From a bacterium (GTDB lineage Bacteria; Atribacterota; JS1; SB-45; 34-128), in assembly GCA_018894595.1 (NCBI GenBank), contig JAHIPN010000367.1, positions 1 through 8,810 on the forward strand: DNA of 8,810 nucleotides, written 5' to 3'. Below are positions 1-8,810 of this stretch, piece by piece. The first letter of the stretch is position 1. Each line of letters opens with the position of its first letter. The notes under the pieces are model-generated. The model was not told the origin of the DNA. It saw only the letters and a program-made list of their open reading frames with translations, and made no database searches. A program made the translations under genes and the position numbers.

Positions 1-294
1 ATATTTGGCAAGATAAAGAAATTTAAAACCAAAGATGAACTTCTGGAAGAAGAAGTTGATAAATTTATTTCTATATACCATCCAGAAAATAAATTCATCT
101 ATATTATAAGGGAATTTATAAAAGCCTACATTTTAGATACAGGATTAAGAAAAATTATTGATTCTAAAGAATTCGCAAGCCTTGCTACTAATCCAAGATT
201 TAATATAAAAGATTTAAAAGAATTAGATGGCTGGAAAGACCCGGTTGTTGAATATATCAGAGATTATGTTCCTCTAAATACTTTTGCAGCATAA
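1..294 (+). CDS. hsdR: Type I restriction endonuclease subunit R (HsdR), C-terminal fragment
   Basis: The reading frame is open from base 1 to a TAA stop at 292-294, giving the last 97 residues; the start lies outside the window. The peptide contains KFISIYHP, REFIKAYILD, FASLATNP and EYIRDYVPLN. From memory of the family this is the typical extreme C-terminus of EcoEI-like HsdR proteins (helical region after the helicase motor, contacting the methylase core). The full protein would be the DNA-translocating and cleaving subunit, with an N-terminal PD-(D/E)XK nuclease and SF2 helicase domains, none of which are visible here. The next gene starts 12 bases after the stop and encodes the methylase/specificity partner, which supports the call and indicates one operon in the order R then M-S. 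I see no sign of decay in the visible part. Whether the rest of hsdR is intact cannot be judged. Confidence 0.85.
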   Translation: MFGKIKKFKTKDELLEEEVDKFISIYHPENKFIYIIREFIKAYILDTGLRKIIDSKEFASLATNPRFNIKDLKELDGWKDPVVEYIRDYVPLNTFAA

Positions 295-306: not shown

Positions 307-2817
307 ATGTTGGATACCGTTACTAAAAGAAGAATTGATACAGCAAGAGATATTCTGGTGGGAAAATTACCGGATCCCAAATCACAAGTGGAACAGATTA
401 CCATTGCTCTGATTTACAAATTTATGGATGATATGGACAAGCAATCTGAAGAGTTAGGGGGTAAAACAAAATTTTTTACCGGTGAATATGAAAAATATTC
501 CTGGAGCAAAATCTTTGACCCCCATGTGAGCGGATATGAACTTGTCGGTTTATACGGAGAAGCTATCCAGCAAATGAATCATAACCCTAATATCCCTCAA
601 TTATTCAGGAATATCTTTAAAAATGCTTATTTGCCCTATCGTGATCCGGAAACCTTGAAAATGTTTTTAAAAGTGATAGGAGATTTCGAATACGATCACA
701 GTGAAAAATTAGGAGATGCTTTTGAGTATCTACTTTCCATTATGGGTTCACAGGGTGATGCGGGTCAATTTAGGACTCCGAGACATATTATTGATTTTAT
801 GGTAAAAGTGGTTGATCCTTGTAAAAATGAAACTGTCCTTGATCCTGCATGTGGAACAGCAGGATTTTTAATTTCTTCATATAATCATATTCTCAATAAA
901 AACAAAAAAGATAATAGATCTACTCTAACGTCCGATGAAAAAACGAGATTAATCAGTAATTTTTCCGGTTATGATATTTCTCCGGATATGGTTCGATTAT
1001 CTTTGGTAAATATGTATCTGCATAAATTCTCAGCTCCAAAAATTTACGAATACGATACCTTATCTTCGGAAGAAAGATGGAATGAGGTTTCTGATGTTAT
1101 TTTGGCTAATCCCCCGTTTATGTCCCCAAAGGGTGGGATTAAGCCTCATAAAAGATTCAGTATACAGGCAAACCGTTCAGAAGTTCTGTTTGTTGATTAT
1201 ATTGCCGAACATTTAAATCCAAACGGTAGGGGCGGTGTGATTGTGCCGGAAGGAATTATTTTTCAGTCAGGTATTGCTTATAAAAAACTTCGAAAAATGT
1301 TAATCGAAAATGCACTTTATGCGGTGGTTTCTTTACCCTCCGGGGTCTTTAATCCTTATTCCGGCGTAAAAACTTCCATACTATTCTTAAATAAAAATTT
1401 TGCCAAAAAAATCGATAAAATCTTATTTGTAAAAGTAAATAATGACGGGTTTGGCTTAGGTGCTCAGCGAAGAGAGGTCAAAGAAAATGACTTACCGCTG
1501 GCATTGGAAATTATTAATAAATATAAACAGAGTGTTATTGAAAACAAAGAAATTGAATTTAATTTAAACGAAGCAAAACTTGCTAATGTCGTAAAAAAAG
1601 AAAAGATTGCAGAGAGTGGGGAATATAATTTAAGTGGCGATAGGTACAAAGAAGCGATTGTTTATAATGGTAAATGGGATTTTGTAGAACTTGGAGAATT
1701 TTGTGATATATATAATGGGTCAACTCCTTCAAAAAGTAATAATGAGTACTGGGATAATGGAACCATTCCTTGGTTTACTATAGAAGATATTAGAAAACAA
1801 GGTCATATAATTTATAAAACTGAGAAAAAAATAACTAAAAAAGCTCTTTATGAAACAAGTATTAAATTATTGCAAAAGGATGCTGTTTTGTTATGTTGCA
1901 CAGCATCAATTGGAGAGTATGCTATTTCAAAAATCCAATTAACTACTAATCAACAGTTCAACGGTTTAGTTATAAAGAATGAATATCAGAAAAAAATATT
2001 ACCTGATTATATTTTTTGGCTAGCTTCAACGTTTAAACCTGAGTTGGAAAGATTGGGAGGAAAGACATCTTTTAAATTTGTCTCAATTAAAAATGTCCAA
2101 AAAATTAAAATACCATTTCCTCCACTTGAAATACAAGAACAAATTGTTGCTGAATTAGACAACTATCAAAAAATAATCGATGGTGCAAAACAGGTTGTAG
2201 AAAATTACAAACCAACTTTTAAAATCGATTCAGAATGGGAAATGATTGGGATAGGAGATGTTTGTGAATTTAATCCTAAAAAATCTGAAGTAAGGAATCT
2301 TGCTGATGATTTGGAAGTTTCATTTGTTCCTATGGCAGACTTGAATGAATATACAATGCTTTTTAGTACAAAACAAACAAAAAGCAAAGCCGAAGTTTAT
2401 CAAGGGTATACCTACTTTAGAGAAAATGATGTTTTGCTTGCCAGAGTGACACCTTGTTTTGAAAATGGGAAATCAGGAATTGCAAGAAACCTAAAGAATG
2501 GCATTGGTTTTGGTTCTAGCGAATATTTTGTTTATAGGCCTAAAAAAATTATTTTACCAGAATGGATATATTATTTTATATCGTCCTTAAATTTTATTGA
2601 ATCGGGGAAAAATCATATGACTGGAACGGGTGGATTGCAACGATTAACCAAAGATTATGCAACTAGATACAAGATTCCTTTTCCTCCATTAAAAGTCCAA
2701 CAACAAATTGTTACTAGAATAGAAAATGAACAAAAAACTATTGATTCCAACAAAGAATTAATTACAATTTTTGAAAATAAAATTAAAGATAAAATCGCAG
2801 AAGTGTGGGGTGGATAA
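307..2817 (+). CDS. hsdMS: Type I DNA methylase-specificity fusion protein (HsdM-HsdS)
   Basis: This 836-residue protein joins two subunits that are usually separate. Residues 1 to about 440 are HsdM: an N-terminal helical domain, then an N6-adenine methyltransferase fold with the AdoMet-binding motif VLDPACGTAGFL (177-188) and the catalytic NPPF (268-271). The sequence NLSGDRY (441-447), typical of HsdM C-termini, marks the junction. The rest is a full HsdS: first target-recognition domain about 456-605, a helical spacer starting IPFPPLEIQEQIV (602-614), second recognition domain about 641-790, and a second spacer starting IPFPPLKVQQQIV (790-802). The two spacers are internal repeats, as expected for HsdS. 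It should methylate adenine in a bipartite target and, with HsdR, restrict unmodified DNA. Nothing looks broken. Separate HsdM works as two copies per HsdS, so the fusion raises a stoichiometry question. The target sequence cannot be read from the protein. Confidence 0.93.
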   Translation: MLDTVTKRRIDTARDILVGKLPDPKSQVEQITIALIYKFMDDMDKQSEELGGKTKFFTGEYEKYSWSKIFDPHVSGYELVGLYGEAIQQMNHNPNIPQLFRNIFKNAYLPYRDPETLKMFLKVIGDFEYDHSEKLGDAFEYLLSIMGSQGDAGQFRTPRHIIDFMVKVVDPCKNETVLDPACGTAGFLISSYNHILNKNKKDNRSTLTSDEKTRLISNFSGYDISPDMVRLSLVNMYLHKFSAPKIYEYDTLSSEERWNEVSDVILANPPFMSPKGGIKPHKRFSIQANRSEVLFVDYIAEHLNPNGRGGVIVPEGIIFQSGIAYKKLRKMLIENALYAVVSLPSGVFNPYSGVKTSILFLNKNFAKKIDKILFVKVNNDGFGLGAQRREVKENDLPLALEIINKYKQSVIENKEIEFNLNEAKLANVVKKEKIAESGEYNLSGDRYKEAIVYNGKWDFVELGEFCDIYNGSTPSKSNNEYWDNGTIPWFTIEDIRKQGHIIYKTEKKITKKALYETSIKLLQKDAVLLCCTASIGEYAISKIQLTTNQQFNGLVIKNEYQKKILPDYIFWLASTFKPELERLGGKTSFKFVSIKNVQKIKIPFPPLEIQEQIVAELDNYQKIIDGAKQVVENYKPTFKIDSEWEMIGIGDVCEFNPKKSEVRNLADDLEVSFVPMADLNEYTMLFSTKQTKSKAEVYQGYTYFRENDVLLARVTPCFENGKSGIARNLKNGIGFGSSEYFVYRPKKIILPEWIYYFISSLNFIESGKNHMTGTGGLQRLTKDYATRYKIPFPPLKVQQQIVTRIENEQKTIDSNKELITIFENKIKDKIAEVWGG
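2807..2813 (+). promoter_or_regulatory. Probable ribosome binding site inside the hsdMS 3' end
   Basis: GGGGTGG sits just upstream of the ATG at 2817, inside the last codons of hsdMS. It favours the ATG at 2817 over the in-frame GTG at 2805, which would lie before this site and has no comparable purine stretch ahead of it at the usual distance. Confidence 0.45.
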
Positions 2818-3545
2818 TGAACGAAGATTCCTTTAAAATATTAAATCATCTACCTTATTTATATAAAACCACTCAAGAGGAGGAATATATTAATTTTTTA
2901 TGGGATGCATTTTATGCAAATTATGAAAAAGAGAAATATCAGTTTGCGTTTATTGGTTACCATATGCTTTTCATGAGTTTTGCGTATTTTTCAATATGGA
3001 AGATAAAAATTAATCGAGAAAAAGATTTTGCTAAAGCATTAATTGGATTTGATAAAAAGTGTGAAAAAAATATGATGAATGCATCCTCTCCCTTTACTTT
3101 TAGTGAAATAAACGAAAGTAACATTTTCAGATTTTTTAAATTAGTCGGGTGTGAGAACGATAAAATTGGTGAATTTACCAGACTGGTAAAAGATCGTAAC
3201 GATATAGCACATTCAAATGGAAACATATTTTTTAATAGCCAGGATTCTCTTGATGAAAAAATTGATGAAGTTTTAGGATGTATTAATAAAATTCAAGAAA
3301 ATATAAAATGTATTATAAAAAATACTTTTAAAGATTTTTTAAAAAATAATTGGGATAACAATGATAGGGAATGGTTAGATGATGGAGACCAAATTAGGGA
3401 AATATTAATCCGTAAGAATTATTTCTCTAAAAAAGATATTGAGCGTTGTCTAACCTTTGATATTAATCTCTTTAAGCAAGAAAAAAGTTTTACTAAAATA
3501 AAAAAATTATTTAAAACATTTCAGAAAGAATATTCAGAAAATTAA
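2817..3545 (+). CDS. HEPN-motif protein coupled to the type I R-M operon
   Basis: The 242-residue product begins at an ATG sharing one base with the hsdMS stop (TAATG), an arrangement typical of translational coupling. An in-frame GTG at 2805 would add four residues, but its ribosome site would be poorer. The clear signature is RNDIAH at residues 127-132, which fits the HEPN motif (R, usually a polar residue, three residues, H), within a mostly helical protein. HEPN domains are helical bundles that often act as metal-independent RNases in toxin, abortive-infection and CRISPR proteins. Related proteins occur beside type I R-M genes. No membrane segment or second domain is evident; residues 145-242 are charged and helical. 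It may be an RNA-cleaving effector restrained by, or monitoring, the R-M complex, but the HEPN fold rests on one motif and the activity is inferred. It could also be a non-catalytic accessory subunit. Confidence 0.72.
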   Translation: MNEDSFKILNHLPYLYKTTQEEEYINFLWDAFYANYEKEKYQFAFIGYHMLFMSFAYFSIWKIKINREKDFAKALIGFDKKCEKNMMNASSPFTFSEINESNIFRFFKLVGCENDKIGEFTRLVKDRNDIAHSNGNIFFNSQDSLDEKIDEVLGCINKIQENIKCIIKNTFKDFLKNNWDNNDREWLDDGDQIREILIRKNYFSKKDIERCLTFDINLFKQEKSFTKIKKLFKTFQKEYSEN

Positions 3546-3655: not shown

Positions 3656-4330
3656 ATGAAAAGTCAATTACATTTACCAGAAACAACGAGAAGATATTTA
3701 AAATCAGAAATTTCGACCTATGTTGAAATTTATTTTCAAAAACTATTGCCGGTTTTTAAAGATATTGAGAGTGATGCAGATAAATGTGCAAATGATTTTT
3801 ACGATAATTTTATGAGCCGACCAACCTCTGATGATTTTATCGATCCTTCATCGATTGCAGAAGAAGCCCTGGAAATAGGTATAGAGCATTATTCGTATCT
3901 TAAATTGGGGAAATATAGGTTAACAGCAACATGGCATGCAACTCTCTATCAGCTATGGGAACAGCAATCAAGATTATTTCTATTTCGCGAAATGTCTCAC
4001 GTCTGTAATATTCAGTTTGAAACGTTCTGTACAAACCTGTCAGAGATAAAGAAAAAATTCAAACTCCATAATGTCGATATAGAAAGTTTCTCTTGTTGGC
4101 CTCAAATAGATGAATTGTGTCTATTATGTAATGTTATAAAACACGGTGATGGTGATTCGGCAAAAAGGTTGCGAAAAATTAAACCGGCACTGTTTAAACA
4201 AGAAGACAATATAGATTATATGAAAATATATAAGACTACTTTATTAGAGGAAACCTTAAACTTAAATGAGATGACTTTGCAAAATTACAGAGATGCTTTG
4301 TTGTCTTTTTGGGATGAAATTCCAGAATGA
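3656..4330 (+). CDS. Hypothetical protein with NVIKHGDG motif
   Basis: The 224-residue product starts at an ATG preceded by AAGGGGGAA (3636-3644), a good but rather distant ribosome site. The protein looks helical, soluble and free of signal or membrane segments. Its most distinctive part is NVIKHGDGDS at residues 159-168, followed by a leucine (172) and KPALF (176-180). This pattern recurs, as far as I recall, in an uncharacterised family of helical proteins, and its N-x3-H spacing recalls the second half of HEPN-type motifs, but the preceding arginine is missing. A catalytic HEPN assignment is therefore not supported. The gene lies alone, 110 bases after the HEPN gene and 92 bases before the SEC-C gene, with related palindromes on both sides, so it may be a single-gene module that moved independently. 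I do not know its function; the neighbourhood makes a defence or stress role possible. Confidence 0.75.
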   Translation: MKSQLHLPETTRRYLKSEISTYVEIYFQKLLPVFKDIESDADKCANDFYDNFMSRPTSDDFIDPSSIAEEALEIGIEHYSYLKLGKYRLTATWHATLYQLWEQQSRLFLFREMSHVCNIQFETFCTNLSEIKKKFKLHNVDIESFSCWPQIDELCLLCNVIKHGDGDSAKRLRKIKPALFKQEDNIDYMKIYKTTLLEETLNLNEMTLQNYRDALLSFWDEIPE

Positions 4331-4422: not shown

Positions 4423-5880
4423 ATGAAAGAAAGATATAATATAAAAAGGAATGATTTATGCCCATGTGAAAGCGGGAAAAAATATAAATATTGTTGCGAG
4501 GGAAAAGTTGACTGGAATCAAATAATAAAAGAAGGGAAAGACAGAACGCCCTATTTTTCAATCCGTGGCCGAAACTTACTTTTCATTAATAAAATTGCTG
4601 AGGCACTTCAGCTTGATTCAGTTATTCCATCATCATTACAGGAACTAAGAGCAGCATTCACTCCTGAAGCAGTCAAGAAAATTCACGAAGCTTTAATAGA
4701 TATCTGGCCTCCAAATACAGATATACATAGCGTACTTCAAGGTGCTCGCTCAGATGTTTCTGGTTTATATGTTGGAGATTATCGGCGTGAGTATATATTT
4801 AAAGGGTTAATACGGCATTCGATATATGCAAACAAAATAATTGTTGTTGATCCATTTGTGTATCCATATAGTGTGAGAGAAAAATACAATCCAATTTTAG
4901 CTCCAGAACAGTATCGCAAAGAAACGCTCAAGAATGTTAACTTTTGGTTTTTACTGGCTCCTTGGATAGATGCAGGAATAGTGGAAATTATACGAACTCC
5001 CAACGATTTTGACCGTAGGCTTAATTGGAATTCCTTAAAAAAACAATATAAAAAGTTTGAAGAGAATGAAGAATTGCGTAAAATATTAGAAAAATCTGTA
5101 TCTGAATTAAGTACCAGACAAAGGGAAAAAGAGATATTTAAACAATTAATTTTACCAGCACCTAATGAATATTTAAAGAAGGTATTTAAAGACGCAGACT
5201 TGGGAAAACATGGGTTAACTTTAGAAGAATTTATTGCTTTTATTGAGGAAGAAAGAGGAAAAGATCCAGATTTCTTAGAGACATTTAAACCTGGAAAGAA
5301 TACACGCCAGTTAATCTCATTTTCTAGCGGTGCAAGTTATGACATTGCTAAATTAACCGCCAATCTTACAGGTTCTTACTTAGTGACAGATATATATTCA
5401 AGATGGAAAGAAATTGAAATAGATAGAGAAAGCCAAAATATTGAAAGCAGAGAATGGTCCCCTCTTGCAAAAGCTTTTCAAAATTTAGAATTTAAATACT
5501 TAAATAATTTAAATCTGGAGCATGCCCTCATTTTAAGAAAGGAAAAACGATTAGAGCATCTTAGAGTATTTCTTCGAAAAGTGTGGAAGTCTGCATGTAC
5601 TGCGGAATCATTTAGCGAGATTAACGCTAAGAATTTAGCTGATGAACTAGTATCTGAAATCAGGAGAGCAGAAGTAGAATGGAAGCAAATAGATCTTGAT
5701 TTGTTGAAATGGTTAGGTGCCGAATTGCTAGCTGTCGGAGAACAAATAGTATCTGGCTCTGGATATTTCTTTCCAGCCGCTTTTGCCATAGCTGGTGCAA
5801 TTGAAATAGGAGTAACACAGTTGAAGAGAAAATCTTTTCAAGATAAGTTTCCAGCTGCATTTTTTATGAAACTTAAATGA
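4423..5880 (+). CDS. SEC-C motif protein of unknown function
   Basis: The 485-residue product has near its N-terminus a SEC-C motif, RNDLCPCESGKKYKYCC (residues 9-25), with zinc ligands C13, C15 and C24 (C25 also present or alternative). SEC-C is a short zinc-binding module first seen at the C-terminus of SecA and fused to many unrelated bodies; it mediates protein or nucleic-acid contacts. The rest, about 450 residues, is not a domain I can name. Visible landmarks are VVDPFVYP (141-148), FWFLLAPWIDAGIVEIIRTP (174-193), a highly charged helical stretch 203-240, and LILRKEKRLEHLRVF (369-383). A hydrophobic, glycine-rich segment at about 432-465 near the C-terminus could be buried helices or a membrane-active stretch. 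The start is backed by AAGGAA with short spacing. The gene is flanked on both sides by the CACAAC palindrome, so it looks like an independent accessory module. A defence role is suggested only by location. Confidence 0.82.
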   Translation: MKERYNIKRNDLCPCESGKKYKYCCEGKVDWNQIIKEGKDRTPYFSIRGRNLLFINKIAEALQLDSVIPSSLQELRAAFTPEAVKKIHEALIDIWPPNTDIHSVLQGARSDVSGLYVGDYRREYIFKGLIRHSIYANKIIVVDPFVYPYSVREKYNPILAPEQYRKETLKNVNFWFLLAPWIDAGIVEIIRTPNDFDRRLNWNSLKKQYKKFEENEELRKILEKSVSELSTRQREKEIFKQLILPAPNEYLKKVFKDADLGKHGLTLEEFIAFIEEERGKDPDFLETFKPGKNTRQLISFSSGASYDIAKLTANLTGSYLVTDIYSRWKEIEIDRESQNIESREWSPLAKAFQNLEFKYLNNLNLEHALILRKEKRLEHLRVFLRKVWKSACTAESFSEINAKNLADELVSEIRRAEVEWKQIDLDLLKWLGAELLAVGEQIVSGSGYFFPAAFAIAGAIEIGVTQLKRKSFQDKFPAAFFMKLK

Positions 5881-6138: not shown

Positions 6139-6145
6139 AGGGAGG
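6139..6145 (+). promoter_or_regulatory. Strong ribosome binding site of the HD-STAND gene
   Basis: AGGGAGG ends 7 bases before the ATG at 6153, the best-spaced Shine-Dalgarno sequence in the right half of the window. It decides the start of the long 3' gene. Confidence 0.7.
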
Positions 6146-6152
6146 CAAGAAA

Positions 6153-8810
6153 ATGGAACTAACAACATTAGAGAAACGATTAAGAGATAAAAAACCAGAT
6201 ATATTTGGAATATATCAGAAAATAAAAAAAGGTATGAGCATCATTCTTAAGGATTATGAATTAAAAAAGGATCTTAATCCGTGGGGATCAATTGTTGATT
6301 ACTATACATTGCACGGATATCAGCATTGCAAGAATGTTCTCACAAAACTAAACTATCTTCTTATCAATGCTGCCCTTAATCCTTATGAACTTTTTTACAT
6401 CCTATCGGCGGTTTGGCTACATGATATTGGTATGATTGAATATCCGGATAATTACGATATCCTAACAGCTCGAAAATACCATCATATCACCAGTGTAAAT
6501 TACTTTAAAAATCATTTTGCCCCAAAATATCTAGAAAATGAAGAACTTCCTGGCGAATTCAAATTTACAAACAAAGACAAATCAGTGATTTGCGACATTA
6601 TTAAATACCACAGGCAAGATGAAAAAATCGAAGAGGTTGAAGAATCCTTCGACCGAGATGGAATTGAAAATAAGGTTTTCTGCCGTTTTTTGTGTGCGAT
6701 TTTCAGAATTGCGGATGGCATAGAGCTTGATAATTCAAGGGCTCCATTTTTTATTTATGAAAGAAATAAAGAATCCATGCCATACTTGAATAAAATCTTT
6801 TGGGAAAAACATTTTCCGATAAACAGCATAATTCCCAACATGGACAAGGACAAAAGAGGCTTAATGGAAATAGAAATGAAATTCTCCCGTTCCGAATCAG
6901 CTGATGGCAGGATTCATGGAAGTGATATGGTTTCAATTCTACATCAAGTTAAAAAAGACATAAAATCCGAAATAGATTCTGTGGCTGCTGAAATCAATCC
7001 TTCATCTCCTGGCTTCCCCGAAGCTAAAAGAATAACGTTTACGGGTTTCCTTTTCATTAATGAAGAGAAGACGGCAGATGATCCTGATCGTATCTTCAGG
7101 TTTAAAGAGAAGGAAGAGCCTTTAGGTTGGTCGATACGGGAAGATGTTGGATGGGAAAGTCCAGATCAGAAGAAGAAAAAATTAAAAGTTGGGCCATTAA
7201 CAAGTTATTTTGAAATTCAAAGATGTTTTGTACATACCAGTAAAACTGAAAAGTTTTTAGATCTTGCTTCTAAAGAATATACAAAATCATATTACTTGTT
7301 ATCTCCTGCAAACACGGGAAAATCAACACTTTTAAATAGTGCGTCATGGAATGTATTTAAAAATAATAATGGTATCCGATCTTATGTAATCCGGATCGAC
7401 AAGAAAGTTCCCACCTATGAAGAATTACTCGATTATCTAAAAAAATACCATTATGTGGAAGATGAAAATTTCATTTGCATATTTGACACGATGGAACACA
7501 TACCTTCAAACATGCCTGACCCTAAGCCATTGAAGAAACTTATACAATCGCTTAGAAATAATCATCATGTTGTGTGGGGAGCCGGTAGGTCATGGGAAGA
7601 ATTTCAATTCACTGAAACATGGAGAAAATTTATTGAAGAAAATTTTGAGATTCATAACTTACCAGGCTTACTTAGAGGGGCTGATATAGAAAAATTTAAG
7701 CCAAAATTTGAGGAATTTTTTTCAGATGAAAAGGAGATATCAAAATTTTGGAAACTGATTCTTAAAGAAGGTGAAATCGAATCAGATTCATTTAGTCAGA
7801 TATATATGGCACTACAAGGAAAAGAAATAAGAACAGTAGATGATGAGGTTATTAGTATTGTTGAAAACAATCTTAAGAGGACTTCTTTCAGGTATGATAA
7901 AATTTATCGGTCTCTCGAACCATGGGAACATAATGTTTACTGCCTGGTTTATAAGTTCCATGGAATTTTCAAAGAAATTGCGAACAATATAATAGCAAAC
8001 TTTGAACATAAGGAAATGAACTTTGTAGAGGAAATGATAGAAAATGGAAAAATTGAAAGCGGTTTTTATCGATTTTCACAAAAAGATGAAAGTGATGAAG
8101 CAATTGCTGGTATTCATCTTAATGATGAATCAAAGAAAATAATCGAGGAACAAAGGACAACCGGCGCTATAGAGAGTACATGCACAAGCTTGTTAGGACA
8201 CTTTTTCGAAACAGGCTCTGAAAAAGTTTGTCAATCCATCCTTTTCTTCTTCAATGTGCGAAGACTGTTAAATCCTGTTCTTTTAAGAGAGTTTATTGCC
8301 TTAGCGGAAAGGTGTCGGGATAAATTTGCTAACTTTCTCATTCTAAGTTACTTGGCACGAGAAACACCATCTTTAATAAAATATTGGAAAGAGCTTACTC
8401 TACAGAAAGCCAATATGTCCAATGAATGGCTTTTTGGTGAAGCTGTCATTAATTTTGGAATCGCGATTGCACAATCAAGTGGAAACAAATCAGATAATAA
8501 AGCTTTTTCCAATATTATTAACTTAGTCTCTAATGAGGACATTTTAAACAATATGGGAATACGTTTTGGTGAGTTACATATACTTAATTATGCTCTATTT
8601 GCATTCGACAAGGCTATCAAACTTAATCCGAAAAATGCATATCCATGGATAGGAAAAGGAATTGCACTCCTTGAGTTAAATAAAACAAAAGAAGCCATCA
8701 AGGCATTCGACAAGGCTATCAAGCTTAATCCGAAGAATGTAATGCCATGGAAGAGAAAAGGTGATGCACTCCTTGAGTTAAATAAAACAAAAGAAGCCAT
8801 TAAGGCATTC
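6153..8810 (+). CDS. HD domain-STAND NTPase-TPR protein, candidate antiviral sensor (3' truncated by window)
   Basis: The frame is open for 886 codons to the last base of the window, without a stop. Residues about 50-200 form an HD phosphohydrolase-like domain: HGYQH (54-58), WLHDIG (88-93), HH (110-111), YH (152-153) and RIADGIELDNSR (185-196), giving the H...HD...D metal-ligand set. After a linker comes a P-loop NTPase: SPANTGKST (384-392) as Walker A with Ser in place of the first Gly, FICIFD (440-445) as Walker B-like, and VVWGAGR (473-479) in the position of a STAND sensor arginine. Residues about 586-650 look like a winged helix. From 817 come 34-residue TPR units. STAND proteins oligomerise on ligand binding and switch on a fused effector. 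Here the effector would be the HD domain, possibly a nucleotidase or nuclease, and the TPRs the sensor. This layout matches Avs-type defence proteins. The specific pairing and its trigger are inferred. Confidence 0.8.
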   Translation, partial: MELTTLEKRLRDKKPDIFGIYQKIKKGMSIILKDYELKKDLNPWGSIVDYYTLHGYQHCKNVLTKLNYLLINAALNPYELFYILSAVWLHDIGMIEYPDNYDILTARKYHHITSVNYFKNHFAPKYLENEELPGEFKFTNKDKSVICDIIKYHRQDEKIEEVEESFDRDGIENKVFCRFLCAIFRIADGIELDNSRAPFFIYERNKESMPYLNKIFWEKHFPINSIIPNMDKDKRGLMEIEMKFSRSESADGRIHGSDMVSILHQVKKDIKSEIDSVAAEINPSSPGFPEAKRITFTGFLFINEEKTADDPDRIFRFKEKEEPLGWSIREDVGWESPDQKKKKLKVGPLTSYFEIQRCFVHTSKTEKFLDLASKEYTKSYYLLSPANTGKSTLLNSASWNVFKNNNGIRSYVIRIDKKVPTYEELLDYLKKYHYVEDENFICIFDTMEHIPSNMPDPKPLKKLIQSLRNNHHVVWGAGRSWEEFQFTETWRKFIEENFEIHNLPGLLRGADIEKFKPKFEEFFSDEKEISKFWKLILKEGEIESDSFSQIYMALQGKEIRTVDDEVISIVENNLKRTSFRYDKIYRSLEPWEHNVYCLVYKFHGIFKEIANNIIANFEHKEMNFVEEMIENGKIESGFYRFSQKDESDEAIAGIHLNDESKKIIEEQRTTGAIESTCTSLLGHFFETGSEKVCQSILFFFNVRRLLNPVLLREFIALAERCRDKFANFLILSYLARETPSLIKYWKELTLQKANMSNEWLFGEAVINFGIAIAQSSGNKSDNKAFSNIINLVSNEDILNNMGIRFGELHILNYALFAFDKAIKLNPKNAYPWIGKGIALLELNKTKEAIKAFDKAIKLNPKNVMPWKRKGDALLELNKTKEAIKAF
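8601..8810 (+). repeat. Tandem 102-bp TPR-coding repeat
   Basis: Units at 8601-8702 and 8703-8804 differ at 13 of 102 positions by my count, and a third unit begins at 8805 with the same GCATTC. Each encodes one 34-residue TPR (AFDKAIKLNPKN and ALLELNKTKEAIK are shared). Most differences cluster in two short stretches inside the unit. Near-identical adjacent units indicate recent duplication, and the number of copies cannot be known from this window. Confidence 0.9.

Follow-up and report, generated by a model that had tools for sequence, protein, structure and literature searches.

A single-chain HD-NTPase-TPR protein as a candidate Avs-like defence sensor in archaea of the Methanophagaceae kind

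Tripartite immune sensors carrying many different effectors are already known. For Avs5 (AVAST type 5), the available part of PMC12931631 describes a Sir2-nSTAND3-TPR/Sel1 protein in which the sensing of phage triggers the N-terminal enzyme. The HD domain has itself been suggested as an effector in a different context, PMC8195603 listing it among the potential enzymatic effectors of proteins with an NCOA6-clade TRADD-N domain, and the HD term is absent from the passages of PMC7159879 consulted. No description of an HD-STAND-TPR protein was found among titles and abstract openings, which is a weak negative as subscription journals are mostly outside this coverage.

The protein considered here is encoded at the end of an 8,810-nucleotide stretch of DNA (the window), and resembles Avs5 (PMC12931631) in that a single gene specifies, in this order, an N-terminal enzyme, a central NTPase and C-terminal helical repeats including TPRs. 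It differs from Avs5 in possessing an HD-CE domain in place of Sir2, and in that its NTPase returns no significant match to nSTAND3 or any other STAND model; the effector-NTPase-repeat layout of Avs is thus present, with the NTPase recognised at motif level only. The HD-type domain is also common to Ppx/GppA and other HD phosphohydrolases, which are metabolic enzymes and to which weak domain III and exopolyphosphatase matches were obtained. We regard it as an even call that the ORF encodes an Avs-like, single-chain sensor for defence whose effector is the HD domain, present in archaea of the Methanophagaceae kind, and an HD effector in a tripartite sensor would come as a moderate surprise. Because PADLOC, which presumably includes the Avs models, assigned no family to the ORF at an E-value of 0.1, nor to residues 1-796 at an E-value of 10, membership of Avs (AVAST) by model was rejected and the protein is treated only as one that may work in the manner of an Avs.

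Domain order and conserved motifs

The ORF (Table 1) is a single frame which, in the ORF scan, extends without a stop to the last base of the window, where it runs out within a 102-nt tandem repeat (90% matches), a place at which the assembly could well break. Profile matches firmly predict both terminal domains: residues 49-231 match the Pfam family HD-CE (in which "CE" presumably denotes conflict element) at 77.6 bits (cut-off 27), the generic HD profile falls just short of its own cut-off (E 3.4e-4), and TPR_1 is matched with an E-value of 1.5e-15. The order given in the initial annotation, with the HD domain first and TPRs at the C-terminus, is thereby borne out within one frame.

Table 1. 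Positions of features in the window and in the comparison records
Feature	Position (residues)	Strand	Basis
HsdR-like protein, C-terminal end	1-294		45% identity to Paracoccus plasmid gene
Fused HsdM-HsdS	307-2817		profile and plasmid matches
HEPN-like protein	2805-3545		Pfam match short of cut-off
ORF with weak RTasHEPN match	3656-4330		PADLOC E 0.012
SEC-C protein, 485 aa	4423-5880		SEC-C motif at start
Shine-Dalgarno-like GGGAGG	6140..6145	+	sequence reading; 7 bases to ATG
HD-NTPase-TPR protein ORF	6153..8810	+	open-frame list; 886 aa, 3' end lost at contig end
HD domain, Pfam HD-CE PF24391	6297..6845 (49-231)	+	E 1.6e-21; ligands H58, H90, D91, D188
Predicted P-loop NTPase region	7245..7832 (365-560)	+	motifs, conservation; nSTAND_NTPase5 below cut-off
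Walker A-like P-loop SPANTGKSTLL	7302..7334 (384-394)	+	11-residue invariant run
Walker B-like FICIFD	7470..7487 (440-445)	+	conservation across relatives
Sensor-1-like VWGAGR	7572..7589 (474-479)	+	conservation across relatives
Possible winged-helix-like segment	7881..8150 (577-666)	+	low-confidence models show helices, two strands and a helix
Predicted helical segment preceding TPRs	8160..8552 (670-800)	+	helices in model 1, block pLDDT 63-91
TPR array start	8595..8810 (from 815)	+	runs into contig end; 102-nt DNA repeat at 8601-8810
Cassette C5 methyltransferase, HD-CE, ORC-CDC6-like ATPase, CARF6-model	L003 8950-13873; L007 10834-15783; L008 8797-13756; L009 around record start		

A family TPR profile, built from the relative P0001, gives three matches in the window, the first being a 13-residue piece and the last being ended by the contig end. 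Eleven relatives of 1009-1259 aa carry on with more TPRs (6-13 profile matches, against 3 in the window), and the number of repeats accordingly varies within the family. In P0013 the TPR part is out of frame after about residue 822 and meets an early stop, which points to a damaged gene copy or an error in sequencing; P0012 ends early. These two copies could be taken to indicate that the ORF is a decayed or inactive relic, which we consider very improbable in view of its long open frame and the strict conservation of both motif sets in the alignment rows that cover them.

The HD-CE cut-off is exceeded in all five of the full or partial relatives scanned (P0001, P0012, P0013, P0014 and P0017). 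In the conservation alignment, which comprises 22 rows and in which fragments or gapped rows are not counted at a given position, all 18 rows counted share H58, H90 and D91, and all 17 counted share D188, with H54, H110 and H153 of the same domain likewise conserved; the proposed metal-ligand set (H58, H90-D91, D188) is retained in full by every covering relative. The HD ligands and the P-loop lysine are identical in all covering relatives, down to 48% identity. Alignment to four HD-CE proteins that do not belong to the family, to which the HD domain of the ORF is 20-24% identical, yielded invariant columns that include H54, H58, H90, D91, R107, H110, H153, D188 and R196-A197, such that the metal-ligand columns are invariant in all five aligned proteins. 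Among solved structures, the resulting profile of five sequences is closest to an exopolyphosphatase (E 0.0023), and the HD part also has a match to Ppx/GppA domain III that is under the cut-off (E 0.0018). Since the ligands are kept both among relatives and in outside HD-CE proteins, and since the solved relative is an exopolyphosphatase, the domain is likely to be an active HD enzyme. The HD part of P0013 matches the PADLOC model RT_UG24, a defence reverse transcriptase (E 1.3e-4), a model that found no match in the window, P0012 or P0017.

Motifs are also conserved in the middle of the chain. The P-loop SPANTGKSTLL is the longest invariant run in residues 1-800, whether 10 rows or all 22 are considered, and its Walker A sequence SPANTGKST (residues 384-392) has serine in place of the first glycine. 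The six longest invariant runs of residues 1-800, as counted in 10 rows, belong to the HD region and the three NTPase motifs. Both K390 and D445 are invariant (18 of 18 rows); E448, which follows FICIFD, is glutamate in 18 rows and glycine in one, that of the most distant relative P0014; R479 is found in 19 of 19 rows, the whole of VWGAGR being invariant in 10 rows and only VWGA across the 22.

Profiles did not place this region. Its best Pfam match is nSTAND_NTPase5 (PF25199) at residues 368-445 (13.6 bits, cut-off 34; E 0.061), and the remaining candidates were AAA_24 (E 0.14), Rho (E 0.034) and the PADLOC model mad8 (E 0.031). No STAND family in Pfam was matched significantly by residues 340-669, nor was any P-loop domain matched when a profile of residues 340-800 was compared with solved structures. 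Two AlphaFold models (mean pLDDT 52.9 and 55.3) were too poor in the HD and NTPase parts for the fold to be judged; in model 1, residues 577-656 form helices followed by two strands, which would fit a winged helix, with a block pLDDT of 29-54. Thus, of the STAND-like NTPase originally claimed, the Walker A, Walker B and sensor-1-like motifs are conserved, motifs that are common to other P-loop NTPases besides STAND, and the STAND class itself lacks a significant profile match. As the region sits between an enzyme domain and a repeat array, we consider residues 365-560 to be a predicted P-loop NTPase that is probably STAND-like.

HD-CE genes outside the family and a possible mode of action

Five comparison loci, on plasmids of Yoonia, Agrobacterium, Rhizobium and Spirosoma and on scaffold MT838009, were drawn by similarity from plasmid and phage collections, and in these HD-CE and ATPase are separate genes. 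In all five the HD-CE gene adjoins a gene for an ORC-CDC6-like ATPase (PF24389), in R-M-like or MZA-like surroundings: in four loci a C5 methyltransferase gene precedes the pair and a CARF6-model protein follows the ATPase, and the fifth has MzaC/D/E-like genes upstream. This link between HD-CE and ATPase genes, seen on four plasmids and one scaffold, is new here. The four-gene cassette, present on plasmids from Pseudomonadota (three) and Bacteroidota (one), resembles a defence system of the R-M-like kind. In a sixth record, from Sinorhizobium meliloti, the ATPase was matched weakly (20%, E 8e-6) and HD-CE was not matched. Because every one of the five outside genes adjoins such an ATPase in R-M-like or MZA-like sets, the pairing of HD-CE with a neighbouring P-loop ATPase appears to be tied to defence, and the ORF may be a one-chain version of this module to which a repeat sensor has been added.

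The ORF and these loci have in common the HD family with its ligand positions, an adjoining P-loop ATPase and an R-M-like or MZA-like setting, whereas the loci comprise two genes, yield no TPR match in the proteins scanned, and carry either a C5 methyltransferase and a CARF6-model protein or MZA-like genes, their ATPase being without detectable homology to that of the ORF. PF24389 was matched by none of the five scanned family proteins or pieces that cover the NTPase, and profile comparison gave the family NTPase probabilities of 5.1% (hhalign) and 2.4% against the ORC-CDC6-like profile, though both profiles were shallow (Neff about 1.7); by sequence, the ORF does not count as an ORC-CDC6-like pair.

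The same comparison bears on a different reading of the ORF, namely that it is a fused HD-CE and ORC-CDC6-like pair in which the HD domain serves a DNA-linked, R-M-like defence machine in regulation or processing, acting for instance in the turnover of a nucleotide signal rather than as a killer, and in which the TPRs dock a partner. The invariable presence of the ATPase gene next to HD-CE, the methyltransferase and CARF6-model genes or their MzaC/D/E-like counterparts, and the catalytic HD positions common to the ORF and outside HD-CE proteins (four of five aligned) are consistent with such a role. It is nevertheless unlikely in our estimation, as the PF24389 and hhalign results argue against it, no TPR was matched in the comparison proteins scanned, and no methyltransferase adjoins the ORF, whose contig stops before the following gene.

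The simplest reading that would join these facts is that of a one-chain HD-CE and ATPase module with TPRs as its sensor, working in a manner similar to Avs5. In a sensor of this type the C-terminal TPR superhelix would bind a protein trigger, probably viral, and binding would release the central STAND-like switch, which would depend on nucleotide. The chains would then assemble, and the N-terminal HD-CE domains, idle beforehand, would become active as a metal-dependent phosphohydrolase or phosphodiesterase. Removal of nucleotides or of a nucleotide signal, or cleavage of nucleic acid, would then stop the infection, and the cell would probably be lost with it. Judged by sequence comparison, a defence role of the protein is likely. 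Regarding the Avs-like sensor originally put forward, the tripartite layout, the lack of any matching PADLOC model for what was put forward as an undescribed sensor, the defence-like HD-CE/ATPase loci and the absence of relatives from the species-representative genomes scanned speak in its favour. The lack of a significant match placing the NTPase in STAND, and the occurrence of the R-M operon without the ORF on a Paracoccus plasmid, do not. A broader proposal, which we find rather doubtful, is that archaea possess a class of NLR-like, tripartite immune sensors with a built-in HD nucleotide phosphohydrolase effector, this being the single-chain counterpart of an HD-CE/ATPase module that is recruited elsewhere to C5-methyltransferase/CARF6 cassettes and MZA-like sets.

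If the Avs-like reading is true, the effectors fused to STAND-type antiviral sensors would come to include an HD phosphohydrolase, and uncultured methane-oxidising archaea would gain an immune candidate. The HD-CE domain would also be linked with a recurrent module of HD and P-loop ATPase that is testable in bacteria by means of the plasmid cassettes.

Distribution of the family and neighbouring genes

Searches of about 5.8 billion proteins identified 21 clusters in addition to the ORF, with identities to it of 92% to 48%. Two of the searches scored only the candidates with the most shared words, and distant relatives may therefore be missed. Other matches (P0018, P0019 and P0023-P0069) covered no more than 14% of the query and contain TPR-type domains. 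A single cluster carries an organism name, the only one in the family, Candidatus Methanophagaceae, which we take to be ANME-1. Two exact-peptide-pattern scans revealed no relative in species-representative genome contigs, an absence that fits the behaviour of accessory genes, and none was present in the viral contigs scanned; 14 control genomes gave an HD-CE match in one and a match at the cut-off in none. The family is thus very small, with a narrow and patchy spread.

A gap of 272 bases separates the preceding gene from the ATG of the ORF, and no bacterial-type promoter or terminator was detected on its strand between positions 5700 and 6300 by a scan whose models are of bacterial type, archaeal promoters being outside its scope. 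As the ORF has its own ribosome site after this gap, it need not belong with its neighbours, which would also suit a cellular regulator of signalling or transcription whose HD domain hydrolyses a second messenger and which is not antiviral. STAND regulators with TPRs are known, of the MalT/AfsR kind, and signalling commonly involves HD proteins and TPR-NTPase proteins; the exopolyphosphatase relationship of the HD-CE profile points in the same direction. Set against this are the narrow and patchy spread, the defence-like genes in the window and near other HD-CE genes, and the fact that neither profiles nor the low-confidence models confirmed a DNA-binding output domain in the ORF, and we therefore hold a regulator of this kind to be quite unlikely.

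The position beside a type I R-M operon that had been proposed for the ORF is correct in so far as the window contains such an operon, between which and the ORF the gene with the weak RTasHEPN match and the SEC-C gene intervene. The HsdR-like, HsdM-HsdS and HEPN-like genes occur in the same order on a Paracoccus plasmid in which no HD-CE match was found, and from this the operon is judged to be a unit separate from the ORF. The HEPN-like ORF contains an R-N-D-I-A-H motif and overlaps the end of HsdMS; it is the third gene of the R-M operon on the Paracoccus plasmid too (46% identity), and is possibly an RNase add-on of the type I-like system. The ORF that follows weakly matches the HEPN of a reverse-transcriptase defence model and has relatives on 16 plasmid records, and the SEC-C protein has 13 plasmid matches, most of which are labelled DUF4238.
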